NCBI RefSeq assembly: GCF_003664255.1
Contig: NZ_RCCV01000001.1
Coordinates: 372,001 to 436,000, forward strand
Length of the DNA: 64,000 bases
From: Micromonospora sp. M71_S20
Lineage (GTDB): Bacteria > Actinomycetota > Actinomycetes > Mycobacteriales > Micromonosporaceae
Direction of reading: 5' to 3'
Shown: positions 35,990-54,460 of the stretch, in pieces
Layout of the letters: every line of letters begins with the position of its first letter
Position numbering within the stretch: the stretch's first letter is position 1
Notes under the pieces: model-generated
What the model saw: the letters and a program-made list of their open reading frames with translations, nothing else
What the model was told of the DNA's origin: nothing
Database searches by the model: none
Program-made: the position numbers and the translations under genes

Positions 35990-36002
35990 CCCGCCGCACC
36001 CA

Positions 36003-38624: not shown

Positions 38625-38770
38625 CAGGGCACCAGCCCGGCGGGAACGGCGCCGACCAGCACCAGGGCGATCAGCACGAGGCCGAGGACGGTGGCGGCCC
38701 AGTCCTCGTTGAACGCGAGCCGGGACTCGTCGGCGGTGGGCGGGGTCTGGGGTGTTGGATCGCTGCTCAT
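38624..38770 (-). CDS. small single-pass membrane protein (48 aa) coupled to the exporter
   Basis: MSSDPTPQTPPTADESRLAF followed by one helix (WAATVLGLVLIALVLVGAVPAGLVP). Good AAGGAG site five nt before the ATG at 38770. Its stop overlaps the exporter start, so the two are made together; it may be a small accessory subunit of the exporter. No family recognised. The 38771-39041 leader contains no other gene but could fold into several GC-rich hairpins. Confidence 0.7.
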   Translation of the reverse strand: MSSDPTPQTPPTADESRLAFNEDWAATVLGLVLIALVLVGAVPAGLVP

Positions 38771-39041: not shown

Positions 39042-39134
39042 TCAGGCCGTCGGGCGCGGACCGGGACAGAGCTGCGAGGCGACCCGCATCAGGTCGACGA
39101 CCCGGCGGGAGGTGAGCAGCGGTACGCGCGGCAT
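39042..39134 (-). CDS. cysteine/sulfur leader peptide (30 aa)
   Basis: Short ORF with the motif SRRVVDLMRVASQLC, matching the RRHVDLxRVxSxLC leader family found upstream of sulfur-assimilation genes in actinomycetes; one cysteine near the end of the motif. Its ATG lies 11 nt after the shared CCTAC-N7-GTAGG element. Probably senses cysteinyl-tRNA supply by ribosome stalling and controls the downstream exporter/ssuD operon. Confidence 0.78.
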   Translation of the reverse strand: MPRVPLLTSRRVVDLMRVASQLCPGPRPTA

Positions 39135-39145
39135 GACCCCATTTT

Positions 39146-39162
39146 CCTACCGGATCAGTAGG
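39146..39162 (-). promoter_or_regulatory. operator/promoter element shared with the second sulfur locus
   Basis: CCTAC-N7-GTAGG inverted repeat just upstream of the leader peptide. The same motif in the same place precedes the leader at 53295-53372. Minus-strand TTGTAA lies just upstream and could be a -35 box. The rest of 39163-39288 shows no feature. Confidence 0.6.
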
Positions 39163-39288
39163 ATTACAAGACCCCTTCGCCCTCGGATGGGCCGAGGGTC
39201 GGCGCGCTGCCCGACGCCGGCGGCACGCGGGACGAGGTCGACCGGGGCCCCGGGGCGAACCACCGCACGGCCGGCGCGGTGCGGTTGG

Positions 39289-39924
39289 TCAGCGCCGGCG
39301 GGCGTACGCCAGCGGCAGCGGGCTCGGCTGGCCGCTCCACGTGCCGGTCAGCACGGCGCCGTCCGACGCGGTGCCGCCGTCGGGGCGGCGGACGACGGCC
39401 AGCTCCACCGAATCGGTGACGACGAGGGTGAGGTCGCCCTCGTCGACCACGCGGCGCACGGCGCCGACGGGCGGGACCTCGGCGCCCCGAGTGCCGCTGC
39501 CCGCGATGGTCATCGACAGCTCGCGGTACTCCCGCCGGCCGTCGACCTCGAAGAACTCCTCCGCCTGCCCGGCGTCGGCGAGCACGGCCGCGGCGAGCGT
39601 CGCGGCGTAGACGGGGTCCGCGCACGCGTCGTAGACCCAGCGGCGGCCGAGCACGGAGTGCTCGGTGGTGCCGACGAGCCAGTCGTCGCCGCCGTCGAGG
39701 GGTGCGCCGCGGTAGGTCAGCGGGACCTGGTGGATCGGGCCGTCGCCGGCCCTGAGGAGCAGCGTCTCGACGCCGACGGCGCCGGCCGGATCGTCGAACC
39801 GGTAGGCCGCCACGCGCGCGACGTCGGCGTCGGCCGGCCCCTGGTACCACGGTCGGCCGGGCAGCCACGCCGCCAGGAGTGCGAACTTCGAGGGGTGCAT
39901 TTCCGCCCGGTGCAGCAGCGCCAT
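39289..39924 (-). CDS. maltokinase N-cap-like domain protein
   Basis: 211 residues, similar over its whole length to the N-terminal cap domain of actinobacterial maltokinases (CG0192-type proteins): MALLHRAEMHPSKFALLAAWLPGRPW, YRFDDPAGAVGVETLLLR, VPLTYRGAPL, LVGTTEHSVLGRRWVYDACADPVYAATLAAAVL. No kinase domain follows, so it acts alone; its activity is unknown. Start taken at the ATG 39924, with 39933 possible. Confidence 0.78.
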   Translation of the reverse strand: MALLHRAEMHPSKFALLAAWLPGRPWYQGPADADVARVAAYRFDDPAGAVGVETLLLRAGDGPIHQVPLTYRGAPLDGGDDWLVGTTEHSVLGRRWVYDACADPVYAATLAAAVLADAGQAEEFFEVDGRREYRELSMTIAGSGTRGAEVPPVGAVRRVVDEGDLTLVVTDSVELAVVRRPDGGTASDGAVLTGTWSGQPSPLPLAYARRR

Positions 39925-40006
39925 ACGCCGCATCGTAGGGGCACGGCCGCACCCCGCGCTGACCCGACCACCACGCGACGCGCCCGACGGAAGCGGGCCC
40001 GGCGGG

Positions 40007-41038
40007 TCACGCGGTGGCGTAGCGGCGCAGCCCGTCGACGTCGGACCGGGTCAGCCGACCCTGCGCGACCAGGAGTTCCAGGTGCGCCGCCGTCTCGGTG
40101 ACGGCGAGCATCGCGTTGAACACGTCGAGGTCACCAAGCCGGCGCTCCCGCCGGGTCCAGCGCAGCTGCGCGGCGACCTCGTACGCCGAGATCGCGCCCC
40201 GTGCGACGGCGGCCTCCGTCTCGTCGAGCCGCGCGCCGTGGTGCGCGACGAGTTCGTCGACCCGCGCGTGCACGCTGGGGGTCACCGGCCCGTGCGCCGG
40301 GAGCAGCCGCGCGTCCGGTCGCCGCCGGACCAACGCGAGCGATGCCAGGAAGTCGCCGAGCGGATCCGCCGACAGCGCGGCCTCGAAGCCGATCGAGGGC
40401 GTGATGGTGGGCAGCACGTGGTCACCGGCGAACAGCAGGTGCCCGCCGGTGTCGTGGAAGACGACGTGCCCGCGCGTGTGGCCCGGCGTCTCGACGACGT
40501 GCAGGGTGCGCTCGCCGTGCCTGATCTGCTCACCGTCGTGGAACCAGTCGTCCGGCAGCTCCCAGTCCTCGGTGCTCAGCCGCGTCCCGGTCAGCCCCGC
40601 CAGGGTGTCGGCCAGCTCGCCGGCGCCCAGCAGCCGCAGGCGGCCGAGCTGCTCGGCGAGCGGATTCCGGTGCGGCGTCATGGACACCGCCAGGCTCTCG
40701 CGTTCACCCGCGCCGAGGCTCACCCGCATGCCGTACTCGCGGCGCAGGTGCACGGCCTGCGTGTAGTGGTCCCGGTGGACGTGCGTCACGAGGAACCGGC
40801 GCACGTCCCCCAGCGAGCAGTCCAGCTCCTTGAGCGCCGCGTCGAGCGCGGAGCGCGCCTCGGCGACCGCCCAGCCGGAGTCGACGAGCACGAGACCGTC
40901 GTCGTCGCGCAGGACGTACACGTTCACGGCGCGCAGGCCGTCGTTCGGCAGCGGCAGCGGCACCCGGTGGACGCCGGGGGCGACCTCGAACGTTCCGGGC
41001 GTGGTCCAGTCGTCGTGGTTGCCGGTGTCCGAGGTCAT
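40007..41038 (-). CDS. MBL-fold metallo-hydrolase
   Basis: 343 residues. The metal-binding signature is VTHVHRDHYTQ (HxHxDH), further ligands in VETPGHTRGHVVFHD and LFAGDHVLPTI, and the late histidine in LLPAHGPVTP. The last 70 residues form the winged-helix tail (HLELLVAQGRLTRSDVDGLRRY) seen in lactamase-B-like hydrolases acting on thioesters or lactones. Minus-strand TATGGT precedes the ATG by 6 nt, so the gene is likely leaderless. Substrate unknown. Confidence 0.83.
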   Translation of the reverse strand: MTSDTGNHDDWTTPGTFEVAPGVHRVPLPLPNDGLRAVNVYVLRDDDGLVLVDSGWAVAEARSALDAALKELDCSLGDVRRFLVTHVHRDHYTQAVHLRREYGMRVSLGAGERESLAVSMTPHRNPLAEQLGRLRLLGAGELADTLAGLTGTRLSTEDWELPDDWFHDGEQIRHGERTLHVVETPGHTRGHVVFHDTGGHLLFAGDHVLPTITPSIGFEAALSADPLGDFLASLALVRRRPDARLLPAHGPVTPSVHARVDELVAHHGARLDETEAAVARGAISAYEVAAQLRWTRRERRLGDLDVFNAMLAVTETAAHLELLVAQGRLTRSDVDGLRRYATA

Positions 41039-41250
41039 GGCCCGACCATAGTTCCGGCTCGCGCCCGCTCCCCCGGCGGCCCGCCACGTCCGGGACGCGA
41101 TCATCGCCGCGACCAGGGACGCCGTGCCGCGGCCCGACGGGGTGGCCCGGTCGGCCGCGGCCAGCCGTCGCGTACCCCGCCTTGCCGGCCGGACGGGCGT
41201 GTGGTTGGTTTCGGGGCAGACCAGATCAGCGGCACACCGAGGAGACGCGC

Positions 41251-42051
41251 GTGGACGACCCGGTTCTCGTCGAGCGGGACGGTCCCGTGGAAACGTGGAC
41301 GATCAACCTGCCGGAGGCCCGCAACCCCATCTCCGGCGACGACGTGATCGACGCGTTGGTCGCCCGGGTCGACGCGGTCAACGCCGACCGGGCGGTGCGG
41401 GCGGTCATCCTCACCGGCGCCGGCAGCGCCTTCTCCGCCGGCGGCAACGTCAAGGACATGGCGGACCGGGTCGGCCTCTTCGGCGGCGCCCCGCACGAGC
41501 TGCGCGACGGCTACCGCCGCGGCATCCAGCGGATCCCCCGGGCGATGTACGCGTGCGACGTGCCGCTGATCGCGGCGGTGAACGGAGCGGCGGTCGGCGC
41601 CGGCTGCGACCTGGCGCTCATGTGCGATCTGCGGATCGCCTCGGAGCGGGCGTTCTTCGCGGAGAGCTTCGTCAAGCTCGGCATCATCCCCGGCGACGGC
41701 GGCGCCTGGCTGCTGCCCCGTGCCGTCGGCGCCGCCCGGGCCGCCGAGATGACGCTGACCGGGGACCGGGTCGACGCCGCGACCGCCCTGGAGTGGGGGC
41801 TGGTCTCCCGGGTCGTGCCGCACGGGGAGCTGCTCACCGAGGCGCGCCGGCTGGCCGACCGGGTGGCGGCGAACCCTCCGCACGCCGTACGGATGGCCAA
41901 GAAGCTGCTGCGCGAGGCCCAGCACCAGAGCCTCGACAGCGTCCTGGAGCTCTCCGCCGCGATGCAGGCGCTGGCGCACCAGACCCGGGACCACGACGAG
42001 GCGGTCCGGGCCTTCCTCGACCGGCGCGAACCGCACTTCACCGGGGAGTGA
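41251..42051 (+). CDS. enoyl-CoA hydratase/isomerase family protein
   Basis: 266-residue crotonase. The CoA oxyanion-hole segments are AVILTGAGSAFSAGGNVKDMA and VNGAAVGAGCDLALMCDLRIA, followed by FAESFVKLGIIPGDGGAWLLPRAVG with Pro-Gly-Asp at the site of one catalytic glutamate and TALEWGLVSRVVP. The GDGG in place of GxGG and retained Glu in AESF suggest hydratase-like chemistry. GTG start with GAGGAG nine nt upstream. The pathway cannot be told; no other beta-oxidation gene is adjacent. Confidence 0.84.
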   Translation: MDDPVLVERDGPVETWTINLPEARNPISGDDVIDALVARVDAVNADRAVRAVILTGAGSAFSAGGNVKDMADRVGLFGGAPHELRDGYRRGIQRIPRAMYACDVPLIAAVNGAAVGAGCDLALMCDLRIASERAFFAESFVKLGIIPGDGGAWLLPRAVGAARAAEMTLTGDRVDAATALEWGLVSRVVPHGELLTEARRLADRVAANPPHAVRMAKKLLREAQHQSLDSVLELSAAMQALAHQTRDHDEAVRAFLDRREPHFTGE

Positions 42052-42136
42052 GCGGATCGACGGCCGGCGGGTGCCGCCGGTGACGATCCCGTCGCCGGGG
42101 CCGGCCGCCCTCCGGACGCCGACCGTCCCGCGTCGG

Positions 42137-42193
42137 GTGGCCCGCCGCCGGGGCCCGGGAGGCGCGTCGCTCCCGGGCCGGTCGGCGGGCCAC
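42137..42193 (-). terminator. long composite hairpin after the kdgK operon
   Basis: Outer arms GTGGCCCGCCG (42137-42147) and CGGCGGGCCAC (42183-42193) with an inner GGCCCGGGAG/CTCCCGGGCC stem; begins 8 nt after the kdgK stop. Confidence 0.7.
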
Positions 42194-42201
42194 GCCGTCG
42201 G

Positions 42202-43296
42202 TCAGCGCTGCACGCGCGCGCCGGCGCCCCGCACGAGCGCCTCGACCTCCCGGAGGCTGGCCATCGAGGTGTCGCCGGGCGTGGTCATCGCCAGCGCGCC
42301 GTGCGCCGCGCCGTACTCGACGGCCGTGCCCAGGTCGCCCTTCTCCAGCAGCCCGTAGATCAGGCCGGAGGCGAAGCTGTCGCCGCCACCGACCCGGTCC
42401 ATGATCTCCAGACCGGGCCGGTGGGTCGCCTCGACGAACTTCCCGTCGGCCCAGGCGATCGCGCCCCAGTCGTTGACGGTCGCGGTGCGCACGGTACGCA
42501 GGGTGGTGGCGACGACCTTGAAGTTGTCGTACTCCCGGGTGGCCGCCTCGATCATCCGCTGGAAGTTGGCCACCTCCAGCTCGGACAGCGAGGCGTCGGT
42601 GTCGGGCACCTCGAAGCCCAGCGAGGCGGTGAAGTCCTCCTCGTTGCCGATCATCACGTCGACGTAGCGGGCCAGCCGGCGGTTCACCTCCCGGGCGCGG
42701 GCCTGCCCGCCGACGGCCTTCCACAGGCTGGGCCGGTAGTTGAGGTCGTACGACACGACGGTGCCGTGCCGGGCGGCGGCGGCCATCGCCGCCTCCATCG
42801 TCTCCGGGGTGGTCTCCGACAGGGCGGCGTAGATGCCGCCGGTGTGCAGCCACCGCACCCCCAGCGTGCCGAACAGGTGGTCCCAGTCCACCTGGTCGGG
42901 CCGGAGCTGGCTGGCGGCGCTGTGGCCGCGGTCGGAGGTGCCGACGGCGCCCCGGACGCCGAAGCCGCGCTCGGTGAAGTTGAGCCCGTTGCGCACGGCG
43001 CGGCCGACCCCGTCGTAGGGCAGCCAGGTCACCAGCGACGTGTCCACCCCGCCCTGGAGCACGAGGTCCTCCAGCAGCCGGCCCACCTCGTTGTCAGCGA
43101 ACGCGGTGACCACGGCGGTCCGCAGGCCGAAGCAGCGGCGCAGGCCGCGCGCCACGTTGTACTCGCCGCCGCCCTCCCAGGCCCGGAACGTGCGGGCGGT
43201 GCGGACCCGGCCCTCGCCCGGGTCGAGCCGCAGCATGATCTCGCCGAGGGAGACCAGGTCGTACCGGCACTCGCCGGCCGGTCGGATGGACAGCAC
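42202..43296 (-). CDS. kdgK: 2-keto-3-deoxygluconate kinase, PfkB family
   Basis: Phosphorylates 2-keto-3-deoxygluconate to KDPG, the substrate of the aldolase encoded just upstream. 364 residues of ribokinase fold: LVSLGEIMLRLDPGEGRVRTARTFRAWEGGGEYNVARGL near the N-terminus, VVSYDLNYRPSLWK, and the anion-hole/catalytic base DRVGGGDSFASGL. The pairing with a KDPG aldolase fixes the assignment. It is separated from eda by only 3 nt. Confidence 0.85.
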   Translation of the reverse strand: MLSIRPAGECRYDLVSLGEIMLRLDPGEGRVRTARTFRAWEGGGEYNVARGLRRCFGLRTAVVTAFADNEVGRLLEDLVLQGGVDTSLVTWLPYDGVGRAVRNGLNFTERGFGVRGAVGTSDRGHSAASQLRPDQVDWDHLFGTLGVRWLHTGGIYAALSETTPETMEAAMAAAARHGTVVSYDLNYRPSLWKAVGGQARAREVNRRLARYVDVMIGNEEDFTASLGFEVPDTDASLSELEVANFQRMIEAATREYDNFKVVATTLRTVRTATVNDWGAIAWADGKFVEATHRPGLEIMDRVGGGDSFASGLIYGLLEKGDLGTAVEYGAAHGALAMTTPGDTSMASLREVEALVRGAGARVQR

Positions 43297-43299
43297 GGC

Positions 43300-43965
43300 T
43301 CAGCCCTCCACGGCGGGTCGGGCGGCCTCGACGGCCGCGGCGGTGCGGGCGGCGACCTCGTCCCAACGCCCGGCGGCGATCAGGTCGGGGGCGACCATCC
43401 AGGTGCCACCGACCGCCAGCACGGCGGGCAGCGCGAGGTAGTCCGCGAGGTTGGCGGTGTTGACCCCGCCGGTCGGGATGAACCGCACCGAGCGGTACGG
43501 CGCGGCGAGCGCCTTGATCATCCCGACGCCGCCGAGCTGCTCGGCGGGGAAGAACTTGACCGTGTCGAGCCCGGCGTCGAGGGCCATCTGGATCTCGGTG
43601 CCGGTGGCGACGCCGGGGAAGACGGGCACACCCAGCTCCTGGCAGCGGCGGACGACGGCCGGTCCGAATCCGGGGGTGACGACGAACCGGGCGCCCGCCT
43701 CGACGGCCCGGTCGACCTGGGCGGGGGTCAGCACGGTGCCGGCGCCGACGAGCAGGTCGGGTCGCTCGGACATGACGCGGATCGCCTCGGCAGCGGCGTC
43801 GGTGCGGAAGGTCACCTCGGCGCAGCGCAGGCCGCCCCGCACCAGCGCGTCGGCCAGCGGGGCGCCGTCGCGGGCGTCGTCGAGCACGACCACCGGCAGG
43901 ATCCGGGCCGCGCCGACGGCCGCGCGGACCGCATGTCTCTGTTCATCATTCTGTACGCCAGTCAC
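43300..43965 (-). CDS. eda: KHG/KDPG aldolase
   Basis: Splits KDPG into pyruvate and glyceraldehyde 3-phosphate. 221 residues: RILPVVVLDD, AEVTFRTDAA with the catalytic Glu, LVGAGTVLTPAQ, FVVTPGFGP, PVFPGVATGTEI, the Schiff-base lysine in TVKFFPAEQLGG, and FIPTGGVNTANL. The likely start is GTG at 43965, which lies inside a palindromic operator and follows a -10 box, so the mRNA may be leaderless. First gene of the eda-kdgK operon. The larger open reading through the IclR gene region is an artefact. Confidence 0.87.
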   Translation of the reverse strand: MTGVQNDEQRHAVRAAVGAARILPVVVLDDARDGAPLADALVRGGLRCAEVTFRTDAAAEAIRVMSERPDLLVGAGTVLTPAQVDRAVEAGARFVVTPGFGPAVVRRCQELGVPVFPGVATGTEIQMALDAGLDTVKFFPAEQLGGVGMIKALAAPYRSVRFIPTGGVNTANLADYLALPAVLAVGGTWMVAPDLIAAGRWDEVAARTAAAVEAARPAVEG

Positions 43966-43978
43966 ATATGTGACCCTA
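43961..43978. promoter_or_regulatory. palindromic operator overlapping the eda promoter
   Basis: GTCACATATGTGAC (43961-43974) is a perfect 14-bp palindrome; minus-strand -10 box TAGGGT occupies 43973-43978. Placement over the start of eda, divergent from the IclR gene, suggests repression by that regulator. Confidence 0.6.
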
Positions 43979-44006
43979 GCCGTGCCGCCCGGCCTGTCAA
44001 CCCCGC

Positions 44007-44012
44007 TAGAGT
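44007..44012 (+). promoter_or_regulatory. -10 box of leaderless promoter for the IclR gene
   Basis: TAGAGT seven nt before the ATG at 44020. Confidence 0.4.
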
Positions 44013-44019
44013 GGCGCCC

Positions 44020-44796
44020 ATGACGCTGCCCGGCGGGTTCCAGCCCGTGAAGTCCTCCACCCGGACGCTGGAGGTGCTCGAGGCGCTGGCCGCCTCGCCG
44101 CAGCGGCGCTCGCTGGTCGACCTGGCCCGCGCGCTGGACATCCCGAAGAGCAGCCTGCACGGCATCCTGCGCACCATGGCCCAGCGCGGCTGGGTCGAGA
44201 GCGACCCGACCGGCACCAGGTTCGGGCTCGGGGTGCGCGCGCTCCAGGTCGGCGCCGCGTACCTCACCAGCGACGACACCGTGGGCCTGCTCGGCGGGGT
44301 GCTCGACGACCTGTCCCGGCAGTTCGGCGAGACCGTCCACCTGGGACGCCTGGACGGCGCGCACATCGTCTACCTCGCCAAGCGCGAGTCGGTGCACCCG
44401 CTGCGGCTCTACAGCGCGATCGGGCGGCAACTGCCGGCCCACGCCACCGCCCTGGGCAAGGCGTTGCTCGCCGAGCGTCCGGACGACGCGCTCGCCGGGC
44501 TGCTGACCTGGCCGCTGCCCGCGCTCACCCCGCACACCGTCACCGACCCCGACGCGCTGCGCGCCGAGCTCGCCGCCGTCCGGGAGCGGGGGTACGCGGT
44601 GGACCGCGAGGAGAACACCGAGGGCATCGTCTGCTTCGCGACCGCCGTACCCCTGGCGGCGCCGGCGTCCGACGCGATCAGCCTGTCGGTGCCGGTGGCC
44701 CGGCTGGACGCCGCCGGCGAGGACCGGATCGTGGCCGCCCTCCGCCGGGCGGTCGACCAGGTCCGGGCGGCGCGCGGCCTGCTCTCCACCGCCTGA
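44020..44796 (+). CDS. IclR-family transcriptional regulator
   Basis: 258 residues. N-terminal winged helix: STRTLEVLEALAASPQRRSLVDLARALDIPKSSLHGILRTMAQRGWVE; C-terminal effector domain with FGETVHLGRLDGAHIVYLAK, GRQLPAHATALGKALLA and the signature YAVDREENTEGIVCFATAVPL. Divergent to eda-kdgK, so probably a KdgR-like regulator responding to a ketodeoxy sugar acid (inference). A palindrome lies between the two transcription units. Confidence 0.85.
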   Translation: MTLPGGFQPVKSSTRTLEVLEALAASPQRRSLVDLARALDIPKSSLHGILRTMAQRGWVESDPTGTRFGLGVRALQVGAAYLTSDDTVGLLGGVLDDLSRQFGETVHLGRLDGAHIVYLAKRESVHPLRLYSAIGRQLPAHATALGKALLAERPDDALAGLLTWPLPALTPHTVTDPDALRAELAAVRERGYAVDREENTEGIVCFATAVPLAAPASDAISLSVPVARLDAAGEDRIVAALRRAVDQVRAARGLLSTA

Positions 44797-44954
44797 CCGA
44801 CGCCGCTCCGGCACCCCCGCCGCCCGCCGACGGGCCCCGGGTGCCCACCGCGGGCGGGCGCGGCCCGGGTCCGGGGGCGCACCGGCCACGCGCATGGACC
44901 CCGGCGCACCGGTCGTCGCCGAGGGCGACGCGCGGGCGACAACTGGCAACCTTC

Positions 44955-45003
44955 TTGACAGATGTGTCGAGATATCGACAGACTTCTTTCGGAGAGCGCT
45001 CTC
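44955..45003 (+). promoter_or_regulatory. promoter region with two palindromes, one LacI-family-like
   Basis: TTGACA (44955-44960) is a good -35 box. TGTCGA-GATA-TCGACA (44965-44980) overlaps the spacer, and GAGAGCGCTCTC (44992-45003) is a perfect palindrome of the GAGCGCTC type bound by LacI-family sugar repressors such as CebR. A clear -10 box is not evident. Confidence 0.5.
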
Positions 45004-45043
45004 TTGTTCCGTCTGCCACCCTCGCCGCACCGGGAGAATCCTC

Positions 45044-46597
45044 TTGTCTCGAAGACTGCGCATGCTCGTCCCCGCCGCCGCCGGCCTCCTGATCCTCGGC
45101 CTGACCCCGGCGGCGGGCCACGCGAGCGACACTCCCCCCGCCGCCCCGGCCCCCACCGCGGCGGCGGGGGCCGACCTCAGCCCCGCCTTGGTCGAGGCGA
45201 TGCGCCGCGACCTCGGCCTCACCCCCACCCAGGTCGACGAACGCCTACGCACCGAGGCGGCGGCGCCGGTGGTCGAGCGGCGCCTGCGGGCCAAGCTCGG
45301 CCCGGCGTTCGCCGGCGCATGGATCCCGTCCGGCGGGCAGCGCCTCACCGTCGCCGTCACGGACGCGGCGCTCGTCAGGACCGTCCGCGCCGAGGGCGCC
45401 GACGTCACGGTCGTCGCCCGCAGCGAGCGCACCCTCGACGCGGTCAAGCGCGCCCTCGACCGGCGCACCGCCGCCGCCGACCCCCGCGACGTCCACGGCT
45501 GGCACGTCGACGTCGCCCGCAACAGCGTGGTCGTGACGGTCCGGCCGGGCGCCGCCGACGAGGCGATCGCGTACGCCAAGGCCAGCGGCGTGCCCACGGA
45601 CGCGATCCGGGTGGTCACGGCCACCGACGCGCCCCGGCCGCTCTACGACATCCGCGGCGGCGACCAGTACGTGATCAACGGCAACACCCTCTGCTCGGTC
45701 GGCTTCGCCGTCGTCGGCGGCTTCGTCACCGCGGGCCACTGCGGCGGTGTCGGCAGCCCGACCCTCGGCTTCAACAACGTCTCCCAGGGCACGTTCGCGG
45801 GGTCGTCGTTCCCCGGCAACGACTACGGATGGGTACGCACCAACGGCTCCTGGACGCCGCAGCCCTGGGTGAACAACTACTCCGGCGGCAACGTGACGGT
45901 CGCCGGCTCGCAGGACGCGGCGATCGGCAGCTCGGTCTGCCGCTCCGGTCGGACGACCGGCTGGCGCTGCGGGACGATCCTGGGCCGCAACGAGACCGTC
46001 AACTACCCGCAGGGTGCGGTGTCGGGCCTGACCCGCAGCAACGCCTGCGCCGAGGGCGGCGACTCCGGCGGGGCCTGGGTCTCCGGCAACCAGGCCCAGG
46101 GCGTCACGTCCGGCGGTTCCGGCAACTGCTCCATGGGCGGCACGACCTGGTTCCAGCCGGTCAACGAGATCCTCGGCGTCTACGGGCTGTCCCTGGTGAC
46201 CACCGGTGGCGGCGACGGGAGCCGGCTGATCAGCAACTGGAACAACCGCTGCATCGACGTGCCGAACTCCAACTTCTCCGACGGCGTCCCCCTGCAGACC
46301 TGGACCTGCAACGGCACCGCCGCGCAGTCGTGGACCTTCACCGGCGGCACGCTGCGTACCCAGAACAACAAGTGCATGGACGTGGCCTGGGGGTCCACCG
46401 CCAACGGCGCGACCATCCAGATCGCCAACTGCAGCGGCAACCCGGCCCAGCAGTTCGTCCTCTCGGCGGCCGGCGACCTGGTCAACCCGCAGGCGAACAA
46501 GTGCGTCGACATCAAGGAGTGGATCAACTCGGACGGCGCCCGCCTGCACCTGTGGGACTGCGTCGGCGGCGCCAACCAGAAGTGGCGTCGCGGCTGA
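45044..46597 (+). CDS. secreted S1 serine protease with ricin-type lectin (CBM13) domain
   Basis: 517 residues. Signal peptide LSRRLRMLVPAAAGLLILGL..., from TTG 45044 behind GGGAG; an ATG at 45062 is the alternative. The pro-region (about 40-200) includes an alpha-lytic-protease prodomain-like segment. The protease domain begins near YDIRGGDQYVI: His in FVTAGHCGG, Asp in GNDYGWV, Ser in EGGDSGGAWVS. The C-terminal 130 residues carry three QxW lectin repeats (CIDV/AAQSWTF, CMDV/NPAQQFVL, CVDI/GANQKWRR). The lectin would target glycans, such as fungal or yeast walls. Lies 89 nt before a GH16 enzyme with the same lectin. Confidence 0.88.
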   Translation: MSRRLRMLVPAAAGLLILGLTPAAGHASDTPPAAPAPTAAAGADLSPALVEAMRRDLGLTPTQVDERLRTEAAAPVVERRLRAKLGPAFAGAWIPSGGQRLTVAVTDAALVRTVRAEGADVTVVARSERTLDAVKRALDRRTAAADPRDVHGWHVDVARNSVVVTVRPGAADEAIAYAKASGVPTDAIRVVTATDAPRPLYDIRGGDQYVINGNTLCSVGFAVVGGFVTAGHCGGVGSPTLGFNNVSQGTFAGSSFPGNDYGWVRTNGSWTPQPWVNNYSGGNVTVAGSQDAAIGSSVCRSGRTTGWRCGTILGRNETVNYPQGAVSGLTRSNACAEGGDSGGAWVSGNQAQGVTSGGSGNCSMGGTTWFQPVNEILGVYGLSLVTTGGGDGSRLISNWNNRCIDVPNSNFSDGVPLQTWTCNGTAAQSWTFTGGTLRTQNNKCMDVAWGSTANGATIQIANCSGNPAQQFVLSAAGDLVNPQANKCVDIKEWINSDGARLHLWDCVGGANQKWRRG

Positions 46598-46686
46598 GCC
46601 CATCCGTCCGCCGTCGCGCCCGCACCGAACGGCCGATCGACGCCGCGAGACACGCCGCGGCGGCGCAGATGCCAAGGAGGTCCTAC

Positions 46687-47949
46687 ATGTTCAGATTCCG
46701 TACCCGTCGCCGGCCGTGGGCGCTCGCCCTCGCCGCGACCGCGATCATCGGCGCCACCACGGCCCTCGCCGTGCCGGTCCACCCCGAACCGGCGCAGGCC
46801 GGCATCGGGGGGATCACCTGGCAGGACGAGTTCAACGCGGCCGCCGGCACGCCCGTCGACCAGAGCAAGTGGCGCTTCGACATCGGCGGCGGCGGCTGGG
46901 GCAACAACGAGCGGCAGTACTACACCAACAGCACGAGCAACGCCGCGCACGACGGCCAGGGCAACCTGGTGATCACCGCCCGCCGGGAGAACCCCGCCAA
47001 CTACCAGTGCCACTACGGCCGGTGCGAGTACACCTCGGCCCGGCTGCTCACGGCGGCGACGTTCACCCAGGCGTACGGCCGCTTCGAGGCCCGCATCAAG
47101 ATCCCGCGCGGTCAGGGCATCTGGCCGGCGTTCTGGATGCTCGGCAACGACATGGGCAGCGTGGGCTGGCCGAACGCGGGCGAGATCGACATCATGGAGA
47201 ACATCGGCCGGGAGCCGAACACCGTCTACGGCACCATCCACGGCCCGGGCTACTCGGGTGGCGGCGGCGTCACCGGCAGCCGCACCATCGGCCAGCCGCT
47301 CGCCGACGGCTTCCACACCTACCGGGTGGACTGGGAACCGAACTCCATCATCTGGTACCTGGACGGCGTCGAGTTCCATCGGGTGGACCCGAGCCGGCTG
47401 GGCGGCAACCGCTGGGTGTTCGACCACCCCTTCTTCATGATCCTCAACGTGGCGGTGGGCGGGAACTGGCCGGGCTACCCCGACGGCTCCACGCAGTTCC
47501 CGCAGCAGATGCTCGTGGACTACGTCCGGGTCTCGGGCTACACCTCGGGCGGCAACCCACCGACCGGCACCAACGCCATCCGGGGCGCGCTCAGCGGTCG
47601 GTGCATCGACATCCCGAGCGCCAACCCGGTCGACGGGGCCAAGCTCCAGATCTGGGACTGCAACGGCACCGCCGCGCAGGCCTGGACGTTCGCCTCCGAC
47701 GGCACGATCCGGGCGATGGGCAAGTGCATGGACCCGGCCTGGGCCGGCACGGCGAACGGCACCGAGGTCAACCTCGTCACCTGCAACGGCAACCCGGCGC
47801 AACGCTTCACGCTCAACGCCGCCGGTGACCTGGTCAACCTCAGCGCGAACCGCTGCGTCGACGTACGGGACCGCAACACCGGCAACGGGGGCAAGCTCCA
47901 GTTGTGGGACTGCACCGGTGACGCCAACCAGAAGTGGTCGCGCGTCTGA
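46687..47949 (+). CDS. secreted GH16 endo-beta-glucanase with ricin-type lectin (CBM13)
   Basis: 420 residues. Signal peptide to about PAQAG (residue 39). Residues 42-280 form a GH16 laminarinase-like domain: WQDEFN, GQGIWPAFWMLG, the catalytic GEIDIMENIG (ExDxxE), TVYGTIHGPGY and FFMILNVAVGGNWPG. The C-terminal CBM13 has three repeats ending in AAQAWTF, NPAQRFTL and ANQKWSR. Predicted to cleave beta-1,3-glucans. Strong AAGGAGG ribosome-binding site. Probably cotranscribed with the upstream protease. Confidence 0.9.
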   Translation: MFRFRTRRRPWALALAATAIIGATTALAVPVHPEPAQAGIGGITWQDEFNAAAGTPVDQSKWRFDIGGGGWGNNERQYYTNSTSNAAHDGQGNLVITARRENPANYQCHYGRCEYTSARLLTAATFTQAYGRFEARIKIPRGQGIWPAFWMLGNDMGSVGWPNAGEIDIMENIGREPNTVYGTIHGPGYSGGGGVTGSRTIGQPLADGFHTYRVDWEPNSIIWYLDGVEFHRVDPSRLGGNRWVFDHPFFMILNVAVGGNWPGYPDGSTQFPQQMLVDYVRVSGYTSGGNPPTGTNAIRGALSGRCIDIPSANPVDGAKLQIWDCNGTAAQAWTFASDGTIRAMGKCMDPAWAGTANGTEVNLVTCNGNPAQRFTLNAAGDLVNLSANRCVDVRDRNTGNGGKLQLWDCTGDANQKWSRV

Positions 47950-47987
47950 CGGAACCTCGCGCGGGCCGACACCTCGTCGCCCGCCCG

Positions 47988-48032
47988 CCGGCCGGGCCGG
48001 TCGGGGCACACAGCCCCGACCGGCCCGGCCGG
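47988..48032. terminator. perfect 20-bp hairpin between convergent operons
   Basis: Arms 47988-48007 and 48013-48032 around an ACACA loop; the strongest hairpin in the window. Can serve both the glucanase gene and the sulfur operon from the other side. Confidence 0.8.
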
Positions 48033-48087
48033 CCCTGCCTGCGGATCAGGTGCGCCAGATCGTCGGGTGCGCCGGCGGCGGCCCGGT

Positions 48088-48673
48088 TCAGTGGACGACG
48101 ACGTCCGGCTCGTTGCCGGGCGACCACTTGATGCCGCACCCCAGGCTCGGAGTGTGGGGCTCGGGCACGTCGCGGCCGGCCAGCACCCGGTCGACCGCCG
48201 CCGCCAGCAGGTCGCCGGTCGCCGGTCACCGGGACGTCGTTGCCCGGCCGCGCCCGGTCGAACGCGCCCCGGTAGGCCAACCTCCGGTCGGCGTCGTACA
48301 GGAAGAAGTCGGGGGTGCAGGCGGCGTGGAAGTCCCGGGCCGTCCGCTGGGCGGCGTCGACCAGGTACGGGAACGTGAAGCCGACCCGCTCGACCTGCCC
48401 GCGCAGGCCGTCGACGTCGTCGTCGGGCTGAATGCCGGTGTCGTTGCTGGCGATGGCGACGACCGACAGCCCGCGCCCGGCCAGCTCGGTGGTCACCTCG
48501 GCGAGCCGCCGCTCGACGTGCCGGACGAACGGGCAGTGGTTGGACAGGAACGCGACCAGCAGGGCGGGCCCGGCGAGGTCCCCCGACGTGACCGGCTTGC
48601 CGTCGAGGTCGGGCAGGTCGAAGGCGGGCAGCGGCGTGCCCAACGCGACGAGCTGCGAGTTCACGGGTGGCAT
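48088..48673 (-). pseudogene. thioredoxin-fold redoxin, frameshifted by a 7-bp duplication
   Basis: Starts normally at ATG 48673 (GAGGAG site): DLDGKPVTSGDLAGPALLVAFLSNHCPFVRHVERRL, the CPFVxH-type redoxin of about 190 residues. After PGNDVPVTGD the frame is lost: TCGCCGG is duplicated in tandem (48212-48218 and 48219-48225). Removing one copy restores the usual ending DLLAAAVDRVLAGRDVPEP...SLGCGIKWSPGNEPD and a stop at 48088. It is the last gene of the sulfonate operon, 18 nt after the ferredoxin. Either a recent mutation, a phase-variable 7-mer or an assembly error. Confidence 0.85.
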
Positions 48674-48691
48674 GTGGCTCTCCTCGGGTGT

Positions 48692-49036
48692 TCAGCCGTC
48701 CAGCCGGACGGGTTCGACGCGATGCAGGAACGGGGTGGTGTCGATGGCGGCGAGCCGGGTCTCGCCCTTGTGCCAGCCCAGCCGCGACCGCCAGCTGCCC
48801 AGCAGTCCCGCCGCGGCGAGCGCGTCCTCGTCGACGCGTTCGACCTCGTCGGCCAGGGGTGAGACGTACATGGCGTCCGCCGGGCAGTACGCCTCGCACA
48901 TGAAGCAGGTCTGGCAGTCGCTCTGCCGGGCGATGACCGGCACCTCCCCGACCACGCCGTCGAAGACGTTGGTGGGGCAGACCCTGACGCAGATGCCGCA
49001 GCCGGTGCAGCGGCTCGCGCTGACGAGCTCGATCAC
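48692..49036 (-). CDS. two-[4Fe-4S] ferredoxin-like subunit
   Basis: 114 residues. Cluster ligands CTGCGICVRVCP (about residues 9-20) and CQTCFMCEAYCP (about 41-52), like the iron-sulfur subunit of adenylylsulfate reductase. The C-terminal 50 residues (DEDALAAAGLLGSWRSRLGWHKGETRLAAIDTTPFLHRVEP) are an extension without cysteines. GTG start overlaps the stop of the flavoprotein (GTGA), so the two are made together and presumably form one oxidoreductase. Confidence 0.82.
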   Translation of the reverse strand: MIELVSASRCTGCGICVRVCPTNVFDGVVGEVPVIARQSDCQTCFMCEAYCPADAMYVSPLADEVERVDEDALAAAGLLGSWRSRLGWHKGETRLAAIDTTPFLHRVEPVRLDG

Positions 49037-50598
49037 GCCGGCACCTCCTCCGTGCGTACGGTCACCCGGTCCAGCCCGGCGAGCACCAGGCGGTGCCGCT
49101 GCCGCGGGTCGGGCGCGGGATGCTCGGCGAGCACGTGCATCCCCCGCGTCTCGGTGCGCGCGAGCGCGGCGACGTGCATCCACCGCGCCGTGGCGACCAT
49201 CGCGGCGGCCTCGCGGGAGCGCACGCGCCCCCGTACCCCCGGTTCCGGCCGGCCCGATACGGCGGGCCACAGGGCGTCCGTGCCGGCCAGCGCACGCCGC
49301 AGCCGGGCGACGGTGCGGAAGTAGCTGACGTCCAGGGGCAGCGTCTCCCGCTGGACGGCCGCGACCACCGCCGCGGTGTCCACGGTGTCGGGCGAGTCCG
49401 CGCGTACGCCGGCACCGCCGATCGGTGCCAGGCGGCGGGTGCGCGGGCCGACGGCGGTCCCGTACGCCGCCGCGGCGGCACCGGACCACCGACCGGAGCA
49501 GATGGCCCAGGACGCGTTGAAGGCGCCCCCGCCGCTCTGGCCGCCGTGGCTGCGTTCCCGCGAGGCGGCGTCGCCGGCGGCGTAGAGACCCGGCACGGAC
49601 GTCTCGCAGCCGTCGCCGACGAGCCGGATCCCGCCCGTGCCCCGCACGGTGCCCTCGAACCGCATGGTCAGCGGGAACCGCTGGGTGAACGGGTCGATGC
49701 CGCGCCGGTCGTAGGGCAGGAAGAACACCGCGTGCGAGGTGCGCAGCAGAGCCCGCTTCTCCGGCGTGTCCGCCCGGTCGAGCACGGCGTGCACGGGGCC
49801 GTCCCGCAGCGCCCGCGCGATGCCGTCGCGCGGCAACGCGCCGTCCCCGGCGTAGACGACCGTGCCGTCGACGGCGGTGATGGTGGCCAGCGACAGCAGC
49901 CGGTTGCGGGTGACGGTGCTGTACTCCGCGCTGGTGCCGTAGGAGTTGCTGAACTCCATGCCGGACAGCTCGGCGCCCGCCTCGGCGGCCATCAGCAGCC
50001 CGTCGCCGGTGAGCACGTTGCAGCCCAGCCCCTTGCTGAGGAACGCGCAGCCGCCCGTGGCGAGTACGACCGCCGGCGCCCGGACCTCCCACTCCGCGCC
50101 GCTGAGCCGGTCGACGCCCCGCGCGCCGCCGACGCCGTGCCGATCGGCGAGCAGTTCCAGGGCCGGTGACTGGTCGAGCACGGTGACGCCGGCCCGGCGC
50201 ACCACGCGGCGCATCAGCCGCATGTACTCCGGTCCCTGGAGGTGGTTGCGCAGCGGCTGGCCGTGATCGTCGCGTACGAACGGGTAGCCCCACCGCTCGA
50301 CCAGTTTCAGGCTCTCGTAGACGTCGTCGAGGACGCGGTGGATCCAGCGCGGCTCGCAGAGCGCGCCGCCGCCGACCATCCGCCTGGCCACCGCCTGTTC
50401 GCGCAGTTCGGCGTCGGGCGGCAGGTAGAGCAGGTTCGAGCCGCCGGGGGCGGTCGCGCCGCTGGAGCCGAGGTAGCCCTTGTCGGCCAGCACCACCCGG
50501 GCGCCGTGGGTGGCGGCACTCCAGGCGGCCCAGGCGCCGGCCGGACCGCCGCCGACGACCAGCACGTCCGCGTCGCGCACTGCGCGGTCGGTCGTCAC
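49033..50598 (-). CDS. FAD-dependent oxidoreductase, fumarate reductase/APS reductase A-like flavoprotein
   Basis: 521 residues. FAD-binding Rossmann DVLVVGGGPAGAWAAWSAATHGARVVLADKG, SSGATAPGGSNLLYLP, VVLATGGCAFLSKGLGCNVLTGDGLLMAAEAGAELSGMEFSNSYG, and the C-terminal PGLYAAGDAAS...GGQSGGGAFNASWAICSG. This is the succinate dehydrogenase/AprA superfamily pattern, but true fumarate reductase active-site motifs are not evident. Cotranscribed and overlapping with a sulfonate-type importer and an AprB-like ferredoxin, so I infer a redox step on an imported sulfur compound. Alternatives: an unrelated dehydrogenase. Confidence 0.8.
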   Translation of the reverse strand: MTTDRAVRDADVLVVGGGPAGAWAAWSAATHGARVVLADKGYLGSSGATAPGGSNLLYLPPDAELREQAVARRMVGGGALCEPRWIHRVLDDVYESLKLVERWGYPFVRDDHGQPLRNHLQGPEYMRLMRRVVRRAGVTVLDQSPALELLADRHGVGGARGVDRLSGAEWEVRAPAVVLATGGCAFLSKGLGCNVLTGDGLLMAAEAGAELSGMEFSNSYGTSAEYSTVTRNRLLSLATITAVDGTVVYAGDGALPRDGIARALRDGPVHAVLDRADTPEKRALLRTSHAVFFLPYDRRGIDPFTQRFPLTMRFEGTVRGTGGIRLVGDGCETSVPGLYAAGDAASRERSHGGQSGGGAFNASWAICSGRWSGAAAAAYGTAVGPRTRRLAPIGGAGVRADSPDTVDTAAVVAAVQRETLPLDVSYFRTVARLRRALAGTDALWPAVSGRPEPGVRGRVRSREAAAMVATARWMHVAALARTETRGMHVLAEHPAPDPRQRHRLVLAGLDRVTVRTEEVPA

Positions 50599-51311
50599 GA
50601 CGTCACCTCCACGGGGTGTTCGGACACGCCCAGCTCGCCGAGCAGCGCCGCACGCAGCGCGGCGAACCCGGGGTCGGTGCGCTGCCGCGGGCCGGGCAGG
50701 TCCACCGGGCGGTCCAGCGAGATGCGGCCGCCGCCCAGCACCACGACGCGGTCGGCCAGCAGCACCGCCTCGTCGACGTCGTGGGTCACGAAGAGCACGG
50801 CCGGCCGGTGCCGGGCGCACAGCTCGCGCAGCAGCGCGTACATCCTGAGCCGGGTCAGCGCGTCGAGCGCGCCGAACGGCTCGTCCAGCAGCAGCACGTC
50901 CGGTTCCCGGACCAGGGCGCGGGCCAGGGCCACCCGCTGCGCCTCGCCGCCGGACAGGGTGACGGGCCAGGCGCGGGCGTGCCCGCTCAGGCCGACCTCG
51001 GCGAGCGCGGCCAGCCCGCGCTCGCGCGGCTGCGGCCCGCCCAGGTGGAACGTGACGTTGGCCAGGACCCGCTTCCACGGCAGCAGCCTCGGCTGTTGGA
51101 AGACGACCGAGCGCCGGGGCCGGATCCGCACGACGCCCTCGATGTCGCGGTCCAGCCCGGCCAGCGCGCGCAGCAGGGTGCTCTTGCCGGAGCCGCTGTG
51201 CCCGAGCATGGCCACGAACTCGCCCGTCGCGACGCTCAGGTCGAGCCCGTCCAGGACGGTGCGGGCCCCGAAGCGTCGCCGGGCGCCGCGCATGTCGATC
51301 GCCGCGCTCAT
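50595..51311 (-). CDS. ssuB: aliphatic sulfonate ABC transporter ATP-binding protein
   Basis: 238 residues. Walker A LGHSGSGKSTLL, Q-loop VFQQPRLLPWKRV, signature LSGGEAQRVALARAL, Walker B VLLLDEPFGALD and switch FVTHDVDEAV, all as in SsuB/TauB. ATG overlaps the permease stop (ATGA) and its own stop overlaps the flavoprotein start, so the operon is tightly coupled. Confidence 0.87.
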   Translation of the reverse strand: MSAAIDMRGARRRFGARTVLDGLDLSVATGEFVAMLGHSGSGKSTLLRALAGLDRDIEGVVRIRPRRSVVFQQPRLLPWKRVLANVTFHLGGPQPRERGLAALAEVGLSGHARAWPVTLSGGEAQRVALARALVREPDVLLLDEPFGALDALTRLRMYALLRELCARHRPAVLFVTHDVDEAVLLADRVVVLGGGRISLDRPVDLPGPRQRTDPGFAALRAALLGELGVSEHPVEVTS

Positions 51312-52162
51312 ACGCCCTCGAATCCGTGGCGCCAGCCGAGCAGGCGCCGCTCCAGGAACCGCACGAGCGCGTAGCTCAGCAGGCCGATCACCGCGTACAG
51401 CAGCAGCACGAGCACGGACAGGTCGAACTGCAGCAGCGTCTGCGCCCGCGACATCAGGAAGCCGATGCCCTCGGTGGTGTTGATGGTCTCCGCGAAGATC
51501 AGGCTGAGCCACGCGCTGGACAGCGCGAGCCGCAGCCCGACCAGGAAGCCGGGCAGCGCCCCGGGCAGGATCACGTGCAGCACCATGGCCGACCGGCCCG
51601 CGCCGAGCGTGCTCGCCGCCTCGACCAGGTGCGCGTCGACGCCGCGGATCGCGCTGTAGGTGTTGATGTAGATGGCGATTCCGACGCCGAGGGCGATCAG
51701 CAGCACCTTCGGCCCCTCGTCGATGCCCATCCACATGATCAGCAGCGGCGTGAGGGCGAAGTTGGGCACGGCCTTGGCCACCTGCATGGTGGAATCGATG
51801 AGGTCCTCGCCGACGCGGCTCAGGCCGGCGAGCACGGCGACGACCGCCCCACCCACCGTCCCGTAGGCGGTGCCCTGCGACACCCGCCACACCGACGCCC
51901 AGACGTGGGTCTGCAGCTCACCGTCGGCGACGAGCCGGGCCGCGGTCGCGGCCACCGCGGCCGGCGGCGGGAAGAGCTGGGGATCGAGCAGGCCGGCGGC
52001 CGAGGCCAGCCACCAGAGGGCGATCAGCAGGGCCGGGCCGGACAGCGCGCGCAGCCAGCGCGGCACGCGCCGCGGGCGGGCCCGGCGCCGGGGGCCGCCG
52101 GCGAGGTCGAGCAGCGCCGGCTCCGCCGTGGGCGCGGTGCTCTTGTCGAGTACGAGCGTCAC
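51308..52162 (-). CDS. ssuC: aliphatic sulfonate ABC transporter permease
   Basis: 284 residues, six helices. The EAA-like loop EAASTLGAGRSAMVLHVILPGALPGFLVGLRLALSSAW is typical of SsuC/TauC/NrtB permeases; VAKAVPNFALTPLLIMWMGID is the conserved helix-3 region. GTG start overlaps the binding-protein stop. Confidence 0.87.
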   Translation of the reverse strand: MTLVLDKSTAPTAEPALLDLAGGPRRRARPRRVPRWLRALSGPALLIALWWLASAAGLLDPQLFPPPAAVAATAARLVADGELQTHVWASVWRVSQGTAYGTVGGAVVAVLAGLSRVGEDLIDSTMQVAKAVPNFALTPLLIMWMGIDEGPKVLLIALGVGIAIYINTYSAIRGVDAHLVEAASTLGAGRSAMVLHVILPGALPGFLVGLRLALSSAWLSLIFAETINTTEGIGFLMSRAQTLLQFDLSVLVLLLYAVIGLLSYALVRFLERRLLGWRHGFEGV

Positions 52163-53121
52163 GACGTCACCAGCCAGGAGTCGACGTCGAACTCGGCGTC
52201 GATGAGCTTCTGCTGCCGGAGGAACTCGTACGTGGCCCTGACCTGCGCGACGCCGTCGGCCGGGAACGGTTCGACGTTGAAGTGCCCGGCCGGTTCCGCC
52301 TTGGCCGCCAGCGCCACGTCAACGGCGTCCTTCTTCGCCGCGTACTCCCAGTAGGCGGAGATGTTGTCGCGGATGTCCTGGTTGACGGCGGCGATCGCCG
52401 TGCCCCACGCCTCGCCGAAGCCCGGGTGCGCGTCCAGGAAGGACTGGAGCGCGGTGCTGTGTTCGGTGCTCAGCAGGTGCGGGTGGCGCGACGCCTTGTC
52501 GATCACCACGAAGCCCTTGCGCTCCAACTCGTACGCCTGCGTCCCGCCGACCACCGTCGCGTCGATGGAGCCGCTGGACAGGCCGGCCAGCGACTCGGGT
52601 GTGGGGACGTTCTTGATCTGGATCCGGTCGGTGAGTCCGGCCGCGTGGAGGAGCCCGTACGCCACGCGGTGGCGGATGGTGCCCTCGGGGGCCGTCACCG
52701 TCCCGCCGACCAGGGCGCCGATGTCCGACGGGCCGCCCTTGCGGCCGATCAGCCAGATGTCGGCGTTGACGGTGGTGAGGGCGAGCAACCGGGTGGGATT
52801 GCCCTTGGCCCGGGTACGCAGCGCGGGCATGTCTCCGGTCACGGCCACGTCGATCGCGCCGGACAGCAGCGCCGAGCTGACGTCGGCACCGGACTGGAAG
52901 AACGAGAAGCGCACCTCCTTGACGCCGCTCGGTCTGAGGCGGTCGCGCAGCAGCCCGCGCTCCTCCGCCCAGCCGAGGTTGCCCTGCACGGTGCCGGTCA
53001 CCGACGTCATGCCGACGCGCAGGACGAACTGCTGGCTGCCGCCGGCGCCGGCGGCCTCGCCGCCGCAGCCGGCGAGGACGACGAGGGTCGACAGGATCGC
53101 GAATAGTCTGATCTTGGGCAT
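52159..53121 (-). CDS. ssuA: sulfonate-type ABC transporter substrate-binding lipoprotein
   Basis: 320 residues. Lipoprotein signal with lipobox LAGC at about residue 19. Periplasmic-binding type II fold: VLRVGMTSVTGTVQGNLGWAEERGLL, VRFSFFQSGADVSSALLSGAIDVAVTGDMPAL, LVGGTVTAPEGTIRHRVAYGLL and LSSGSIDATVVGGTQAYELE. Matches SsuA/TauA/NrtA-like proteins; the ligand is most likely a sulfonate but a thiol or nitrate analogue cannot be excluded. It follows the leader peptide and a candidate attenuator hairpin. Confidence 0.84.
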   Translation of the reverse strand: MPKIRLFAILSTLVVLAGCGGEAAGAGGSQQFVLRVGMTSVTGTVQGNLGWAEERGLLRDRLRPSGVKEVRFSFFQSGADVSSALLSGAIDVAVTGDMPALRTRAKGNPTRLLALTTVNADIWLIGRKGGPSDIGALVGGTVTAPEGTIRHRVAYGLLHAAGLTDRIQIKNVPTPESLAGLSSGSIDATVVGGTQAYELERKGFVVIDKASRHPHLLSTEHSTALQSFLDAHPGFGEAWGTAIAAVNQDIRDNISAYWEYAAKKDAVDVALAAKAEPAGHFNVEPFPADGVAQVRATYEFLRQQKLIDAEFDVDSWLVTS

Positions 53122-53174
53122 GCGAAGGCTCCCTGGGGATGCGTCGAGGAATCGACGGGGGCATGGGCGTGGCG

Positions 53175-53202
53175 ACCAGCCGCTCGTCGGCGAGCGGCTG
53201 GT
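53175..53202 (-). terminator. candidate attenuator hairpin in the sulfur leader
   Basis: Perfect 12-bp stem (53175-53186 with 53191-53202), 4-nt loop, between the leader peptide and ssuA. No U-run; it could be a transcriptional attenuator or sequester translation signals. Confidence 0.4.
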
Positions 53203-53294
53203 GCGGGATCGGGCCGGCGGCGGGCCGTCGTGCGGCGACTGCCGTGCGGTGGCCGTGTCTCGTGCGGCGGCCGTGGTGGTGGTGGTGCGCCTCG

Positions 53295-53372
53295 TCAGCG
53301 GCTACAGAGGCTGCTGGCGGTCCGCTCGAGGTCCACGTGGCGCCGGGTGATGAGAACCCTCGTCGCCGTCAT
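53295..53372 (-). CDS. cysteine/sulfur leader peptide (25 aa)
   Basis: Encodes a peptide with TRRHVDLERTASSLC, the actinomycete RHVDL leader motif with a single cysteine two residues before the end. ATG at 53372 lies 9-10 nt after the shared operator element and is probably leaderless (minus-strand TAGGGT seven nt upstream). It precedes the sulfonate importer operon and likely couples it to cysteine supply. Confidence 0.83.
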   Translation of the reverse strand: MTATRVLITRRHVDLERTASSLCSR

Positions 53373-53379
53373 GGCACAA

Positions 53380-53408
53380 ACCCTACTTGTCCTATAGGAG
53401 AAGGCAAC
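53380..53408 (-). promoter_or_regulatory. promoter with operator element shared by both sulfur loci
   Basis: Minus strand TTGCCT, 16 nt, TAGGGT, with CCTAT-N7-GTAGG (53382-53398) filling the spacer and overlapping the -10 box. Same motif as at 39146-39162. The divergent gap to the BASS gene at 53556 shows nothing else clear. Confidence 0.6.
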
Positions 53409-54455: not shown

Positions 54456-54460
54456 GCGGC

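Follow-up and report, generated by a model that had tools for sequence, protein, structure and literature searches.

A 17-bp operator marks a sulfur regulon in Micromonospora and points to CymR-like Rrf2 proteins as candidate regulators

A palindromic 17-bp motif, CCTAY-N7-RTAGG, marks a sulfur regulon in Micromonospora. Two of its sites lie in a 64,000-nucleotide stretch of the Micromonospora sp. M71_S20 genome (NCBI RefSeq assembly GCF_003664255.1, contig NZ_RCCV01000001.1, positions 372,001 to 436,000; termed the window), where each stands before a short leader open reading frame (ORF) and an operon of sulfur-type genes. These operons were the subject of an original prediction of a small regulon under double control by a DNA-binding regulator and cysteine-dependent attenuation. 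The candidate regulator lies outside the window and was absent from that prediction. In Micromonospora and certain other actinobacteria, the motif probably serves as the operator of a regulon for sulfur acquisition and is bound by a CymR-like Rrf2 repressor, namely, one of two paralogues termed C and A or both. This reading draws on observations of the motif, its positions and conservation, the gene families that it precedes, its linkage to Rrf2 genes and its co-occurrence with them.

Operator sites and sulfur genes

Four sites were detected in the 7.8-Mb genome, and the genes behind all four are of families related to sulfur. Two of the sites are those of the window operons; the third precedes a cysteine-dioxygenase-like gene with a rhodanese-like gene next in line (L003), and the fourth precedes the ssuA-like gene of an ssuABC-like operon (L004). 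The motif was, hence, neither common throughout the genome nor unlinked to sulfur genes, and the predicted small regulon was upheld together with its DNA-binding regulator, as a regulon implies one. Linkage was scored in six same-genus genomes, chosen for their fully listed sites and not at random, by phmmer comparison of the outward ORF overlapping the 250 to 350 bp from each site with reference sulfur proteins, which were picked after the neighbours had been seen. Sulfur genes were preceded by 29 of 40 exact sites (21 distinct sequences among the 29, orthologous sites not being independent) and by 0 of 33 sites of the reversed motif (Fisher p = 1.7e-11), indicating that a sulfur regulon marked by CCTAY-N7-RTAGG exists. 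One site with a leader and no reference sulfur gene (L073) was counted as unlinked.

The families represented among the targets were cysteine dioxygenase, rhodanese, SBP56, SsuA-type proteins, SsuD-like enzymes, YeiH, flavin reductase, DUF1684 and molybdopterin oxidoreductases of the sulfite-dehydrogenase type; an SfnB target over the family cut-off was found in G001, a genome outside the six-genome tally. In a genome from another family (G036), one site is located between divergent cysC-cysD genes and sulfite/nitrite-reductase-like plus cysH genes (L100, G036:C1:6931167-6931447), with a leader on each side, both over the cut-off of the leader model NF042934. The extended consensus of the sulfur-linked sites is near CCTAYYRAWTYRRTAGG, and their central guanine-plus-cytosine (GC) content was 41% (21 distinct sequences) versus 60% for the 11 unlinked sites.

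A stricter palindrome, CCTAYTNANTNARTAGG, was present in 2 of 296 genomes of a phylum sample and 5 of 200 genomes of an order sample and was too strict for mapping of the regulon. A one-mismatch scan of the M71_S20 genome detected 65 places versus 339 for the reversed control, mostly GC-rich, and was not used. A further genome of the same family (G463) contained 77 exact matches. Of those listed, many have the sequence CCTACGGTTTTGGTAGG or a close variant and are spaced 100 to 200 bp apart (e.g., L110 and L118), which looks like an unrelated interspersed repeat.

Within the window, operator 1 (39146..39162; leader-strand sequence CCTACTGATCCGGTAGG) and operator 2 (53382..53398; leader-strand sequence CCTATAGGACAAGTAGG) are both exact matches to CCTAY-N7-GTAGG. 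The leader ORFs, located on the minus strand at 39042..39134 and 53295..53372, were present as predicted and encode the peptides that had been quoted, MPRVPLLTSRRVVDLMRVASQLCPGPRPTA (30 amino acids, containing SRRVVDLMRVASQLC) and MTATRVLITRRHVDLERTASSLCSR (25 amino acids, containing TRRHVDLERTASSLC). The motif had been placed within 12 nt of each leader, and the spacing between operator and leader ATG is 11 nt in operon 1 and 9 nt in operon 2. The predicted overlap with the promoter was also consistent with the sequence, as operator 1 overlaps a plausible -10 element, TAGGAA, close upstream of the leader ATG, while the right end of operator 2 forms part of another, TAGGGT. Since the right operator halves overlap these plausible -10 elements, transcription of both leaders probably begins at, or within a short distance of, their own start codons. 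A scan of the window alone, allowing up to one mismatch on both strands, gave four motif matches, a count that is not striking as it was reached by 18 of 100 shuffles.

Rrf2 proteins as candidate regulators

An Rrf2 protein was suspected because the type-2 motif of IscR has the same length and CC/GG spacing as the operator. Rrf2 genes were, accordingly, sought in ten genomes with PF02082. In M71_S20, the gene for protein C (C2:436156-436605) lies directly behind ssuABC-like genes that have an operator at C2:433401, while the gene for paralogue A is at C1:470073-470528. The distance from operator to C was 2,736 to 2,901 bp in 15 of 15 measured genomes, out of 19 same-genus genomes with C; those left out were G001, G003 and G005, which have no exact site beside C, and G014, whose sites were not fully listed. 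ORFs resembling ssuA, ssuB and ssuC lie between operator and C in the six genomes read. In another genus (G374), an Rrf2 profile match of approximately 84 residues begins 35 nt downstream of a site, and CysT/CysW/CysA-type genes follow. Across 25 same-genus genomes, 2 to 9 exact sites were present in the 19 with C and 0 or 1 in the 6 without C (Mann-Whitney p = 1.5e-4, not corrected for ancestry).

A tree of the Rrf2 proteins and the sequences themselves distinguished three groups, A, B and C, that lack the three cysteines of NsrR-like proteins. No cysteine was present in five of five A-type proteins or in five of six C stretches, the sixth having one, versus three in the NsrR-like protein of the window. 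Both A and C belong to the Rrf2 superfamily, with scores of 106.8 and 95.0 bits, respectively, for TIGR00738 (cut-off, 73.3) and 112.2 and 93.5 bits for PF02082 (cut-off, 30). The best specific NCBIfam model for both proteins was that of CymR (NF047409), at 91.9 bits for A and 63.4 bits for C, below the cut-off of 195, and CymR chains (PDB 2y75 and 3t8r) were among the best PDB matches of each. Group B was set aside as it is also present in genomes without sites. At one locus of M71_S20 (L161, region of C3:587641), paralogue B adjoins a gene that by eye resembles a TSUP/TauE-type permease, a possible link to sulfur. The NsrR-like Rrf2 gene of the window (20768-21406, minus strand) is divergent from a gene that looks by eye like a flavohaemoglobin gene (21568-22788, plus strand), and these are probably an ordinary nitric oxide-response pair and not a sulfur regulator.

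Several findings weigh against an operator bound by these Rrf2 proteins, and against C in particular. The raw frequency of the motif is not enriched, the reversed pattern occurring five times in the M71_S20 genome versus four operator sites, and 11 of the 40 sites in the six-genome tally had no reference sulfur gene. C lies outside ssuABC in G001 and G003, with no exact site in those 3-kb loci; both exact sites of G005 are on contigs other than that carrying C; and the promoter of the ssuABC-Rrf2 cluster of G036 contains only two-mismatch matches. Four genomes lacking A and C, in which no site could be linked to a sulfur gene, are also without the dioxygenase gene, so that co-loss may have involved a whole sulfur module. 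G007 and G018 have A, lack C and carry one sulfur-linked site each, before the dioxygenase gene and ssuA, respectively (no exact site was found at the dioxygenase gene of G018), and, hence, C alone cannot explain all sites. The position at which a Glu of IscR contacts the CC of its site, as described in the available text of PMC5411485, is occupied by Gln in C (SFLQG) and by Glu in A (KFLEA). The sites in G007 and G018 and the presence of Glu in A versus Gln in C are the reasons for naming C and A together as candidate regulators, with C favoured for the wider regulon.

An operator belonging to A alone, with C a local regulator that happens to sit in one target operon, seems unlikely. Of 25 same-genus genomes, 21 have A, G007 and G018 among them (assignment was by match pattern, and eight of the sequences were read). 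A outscores C against CymR, retains the Glu and, in G004, G008 and G024, has a leader-bearing ssu-like operon nearby. However, no site was seen before A in the five A-type genes checked, the number of sites tracks C more closely (2 to 9 with C and 1 each in G007 and G018), and C stands behind the operator in every measured genome. Binding by a regulator of another family, with the Rrf2 genes as bystanders, was judged improbable. LysR-type regulators recognize a T-N11-A box, a symmetry that is present in the sequence, CTAT-N7-ATAG also fitting such a box, and one GC-rich G036 site adjoins a LysR-like gene. Overlap with a plausible -10 element is, however, more suited to a repressor, no LysR gene was noticed beside the sulfur-linked sites when gene calls were read by eye (no dedicated search was made), and the link to Rrf2 is seen across 15 genomes and again outside the genus. 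The genes beside two of the G036 sites are MerR-like and LysR-like. The disfavoured notion that the window operons have no common regulator and merely carry paralogous copies of one promoter-leader block, duplicated inside this genome, is very improbable: the order of operator and leader is the same and the spacing nearly equal in both operons, but the other two sites of the genome have no leader and flanks that are unrelated by eye, and the linked sites of the six genomes are diverse in sequence.

Under the preferred reading of an operator bound by C, A or both, a CymR-like Rrf2 repressor without Fe-S ligands would bind the operator and, when reduced sulfur is plentiful, would sit on or near the -10 region. 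When reduced sulfur is scarce, the repressor would leave, allowing expression of sulfonate, thiol and sulfite genes and of its own operon. At a minority of targets, both window operons included, the leader ORF would be transcribed first, starting approximately 10 nt past the operator, and, as it ends shortly after one Cys codon, might provide a second, translation-coupled check on Cys-tRNA. Binding, repression, the response to cysteine, the signal and the action of the leader are what we infer. More tentatively, these features may amount to a sulfur regulon not described before, in which a CymR-like Rrf2 protein controls its own expression and acts through a dedicated 17-bp operator. At some of the promoters, this operator would be joined to a leaderless leader ORF with a single cysteine, so that one promoter would integrate free sulfur status, through the repressor, with Cys-tRNA charging, through the leader. 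In G036, one operator would even control two sulfate-assimilation operons in opposite directions, a separate leader heading each. Such a system, possible in Micromonospora, would probably extend to other actinobacteria.

Leader peptides and gene content of the window operons

The leaders belong to NCBIfam NF042934 ("putative leader peptide"), a family of short ORFs at the 5' end of sulfur operons with the core RRxVDLxR...C. Leader 2 was over the cut-off of 27 bits (31.6 bits) and leader 1 narrowly below it (25.0 bits). The Ms5788A model was not reached by the window leaders (24.5 and 13.9 bits) nor the Ms4527A model by leader 2 (20.1 bits), the cut-off being 45 bits in both cases. Each window leader has one Cys codon. 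Another leader in M71_S20, the third of this genome, contains three Cys codons and precedes a gene of the 3-mercaptopyruvate-sulfurtransferase type, which scores below the cut-off of that family. Leaders of this sulfurtransferase type, the most frequent relatives of the window leaders, assigned by peptide and with the downstream gene read in M71_S20 only, had no operator match of fewer than two mismatches in the 300 bp upstream in any of the 25 same-genus genomes. In the six-genome tally, only 6 of 40 operators were accompanied by a leader ORF, including one weak variant detected by a looser test (L082 at 3075) and excluding one regex match that crossed a stop (L087); none was found at the dioxygenase and ssuA sites of M71_S20. 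As leaders occur without the operator and operators without the leader, the two are separable, and the claim that together they define the regulon had to be abandoned.

Where they co-occur, operator and leader are conserved as a unit, as is the position of the leader before the operon. A DNA-only pattern for the unit, operator-AAAAT-N4-7-ATG, matched at least 119 stretches, and among those listed 17 of 119 encode a leader in the frame of that ATG. Titles were available for 80 of the 119 stretches; 13 were from Micromonospora, 11 of them with a leader, and a full leader was found in 0 of the 67 others; among these, a Jiangella locus breaks off within an ORF starting MLAPFLTQRRHVDLMR. The ORFs downstream of the Micromonospora leaders, where read, were of the YeiH or DUF1684/flavin-reductase type. 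Loci of Micromonospora parva (L309) and M. trifolii (L312) have kept the operator and have a broken leader ORF, making them natural leader-less promoter variants. At four other loci (L236, L239, L241 and L244), leaders of the form ..RRHVD[LM]MRV..C without an exact operator stand before genes that look like amino acid ABC transporter genes.

Cysteine-dependent attenuation, as originally predicted for both operons, can reasonably be inferred from the leader family, and the two operons differed in RNA structure. The spacer that separates leader 2 from the gene for the substrate-binding protein contains a perfect 12-bp hairpin with a 4-nt loop and no T run (53175..53202, minus strand); 12 bp was reached by 0 of 1,000 dinucleotide shuffles. 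No comparable hairpin was found after the leader in the operon 1 spacer (416 of 1,000 shuffles), so that the predicted attenuation was only partly supported. Among orthologues of operon 1, hairpins of 11 to 17 bp, at a distance of 15 to 21 nt from the 3' limit of the analysed spacer, were present in four of nine and absent from five; one of the four was L309, which retains both hairpin and operator with its broken leader. Folding of the whole spacers was weak (z scores of -1.96 for operon 2 and -0.03 for operon 1), RNAalifold gave a poor consensus for ten operon 1 spacers, and no Rfam match at gathering scores was obtained for positions 36000 to 54600.

All of the genes in the two operons are on the minus strand, and their NCBIfam matches are below equivalog cut-offs, so that the names used here denote family likeness and not substrate or direction of transport. 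Leader 1 is followed by a 48-amino-acid ORF with one hydrophobic stretch and no family match (38624..38770), a similar ORF also being present in locus L238. Next are a YeiH-type membrane protein (37359..38624; PF03601; start chosen from sequence), a putative sulfate exporter by family name only, and an SsuD-like FMNH2-dependent alkanesulfonate monooxygenase of the LLM family (36063..37250; TIGR03565, 454 bits with a cut-off of 518; PF00296). Operon 2 encodes an SsuA-family ABC substrate-binding protein (52159..53121; TIGR01728, 74 bits with a cut-off of 163.5), an SsuC-like ABC permease (51308..52162; NF008470, 200 bits with a cut-off of 347; PF00528) and an SsuB-like ABC ATPase (50595..51311; NF008420, 232 bits with a cut-off of 395), the last lying within a longer ORF, 50595-51890, with its start taken from the matched residues. 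Behind this SsuABC-like transporter, at 48692-50598, stand a flavin adenine dinucleotide (FAD) flavoprotein whose family matches are to the fumarate reductase/L-aspartate oxidase/APS-reductase-alpha superfamily (49033..50598; start inferred) and a small 4Fe-4S ferredoxin (48692..49036; start inferred) forming the C-terminal part of ORF 48692-50293. The gene contents originally assigned to these operons, an exporter plus an SsuD-like enzyme and an importer plus a flavoprotein and ferredoxin, were thus broadly right, with the reservation that the score of the YeiH-type protein was below the TIGR00698 cut-off and that "exporter" is a family name.

Relation to known sulfur regulators

Among actinomycetes, to our knowledge, sulfur regulation is understood in detail only for Corynebacterium and to some extent for Mycobacterium, although many natural products draw on the sulfur supply. 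If the proposal is true, an operator, a pair of candidate repressors and a list of targets are in hand for testing; it would also suggest that, within a known leader peptide family, a second signal acts on some operons and not on others. The leader family NF042934 and the Rrf2/CymR family are already known, and a keyword search of open-licence literature found no description of this operator or of a Micromonospora Rrf2 sulfur regulon.

The closest known counterparts of the window leaders are the NF042934 family and the cysteine-rich upstream ORFs (uORFs) of mycobacteria. The window leaders differ in having a single Cys codon, not a cluster, and in being directly behind a palindromic operator. 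The title of Canestrari et al. (2020) reportedly calls the mycobacterial uORFs cysteine-responsive attenuators. That work is cited in the available text of PMC9094748, and mycobacterial uORFs with cysteine codons, situated before cysA2 and further genes, have been proposed as attenuators (excerpt of PMC4633059).

Among Rrf2 proteins, CymR is an example of those without a cofactor (available text of PMC5411485) and acts through a mechanism involving CysK and O-acetylserine (excerpt of PMC2940859). A and C share with CymR, which represses cysteine metabolism in Bacillus and Staphylococcus, the Rrf2 family, the lack of a three-cysteine Fe-S site and sulfur targets; they differ in falling well short of its equivalog cut-off. 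The type-2 motif of Escherichia coli IscR, CCxYA-N7-TRxGG (excerpt of PMC4055776), is likewise a 17-bp CC-N13-GG palindrome with a 7-nt centre and is bound by an Rrf2 protein. The inner bases of the present operator are TAY/RTA versus xYA/TRx for IscR, its targets are sulfur acquisition genes, and A and C are without the three conserved cysteines of IscR.

SsuR of Corynebacterium glutamicum is a ROK-type regulator. In the same species, McbR is of the TetR type (available text of PMC8557817), and CysR, a regulator of sulfur genes, is of the ROK type (excerpt of PMC2580772). All three regulate sulfur genes in an actinobacterium and differ from A and C in not being Rrf2 proteins. Closer in kind is IGTS8_peg394 of Rhodococcus qingshengii, an actinobacterial CymR/Rrf2 candidate sulfur regulator detected only in dibenzothiophene culture (excerpt of PMC8557817). 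For that protein, the available text of the same source gives no operator or target set and describes the immediate neighbours as nonsulfur genes, whereas in Micromonospora an operator, targets and linkage within an operon have been found.

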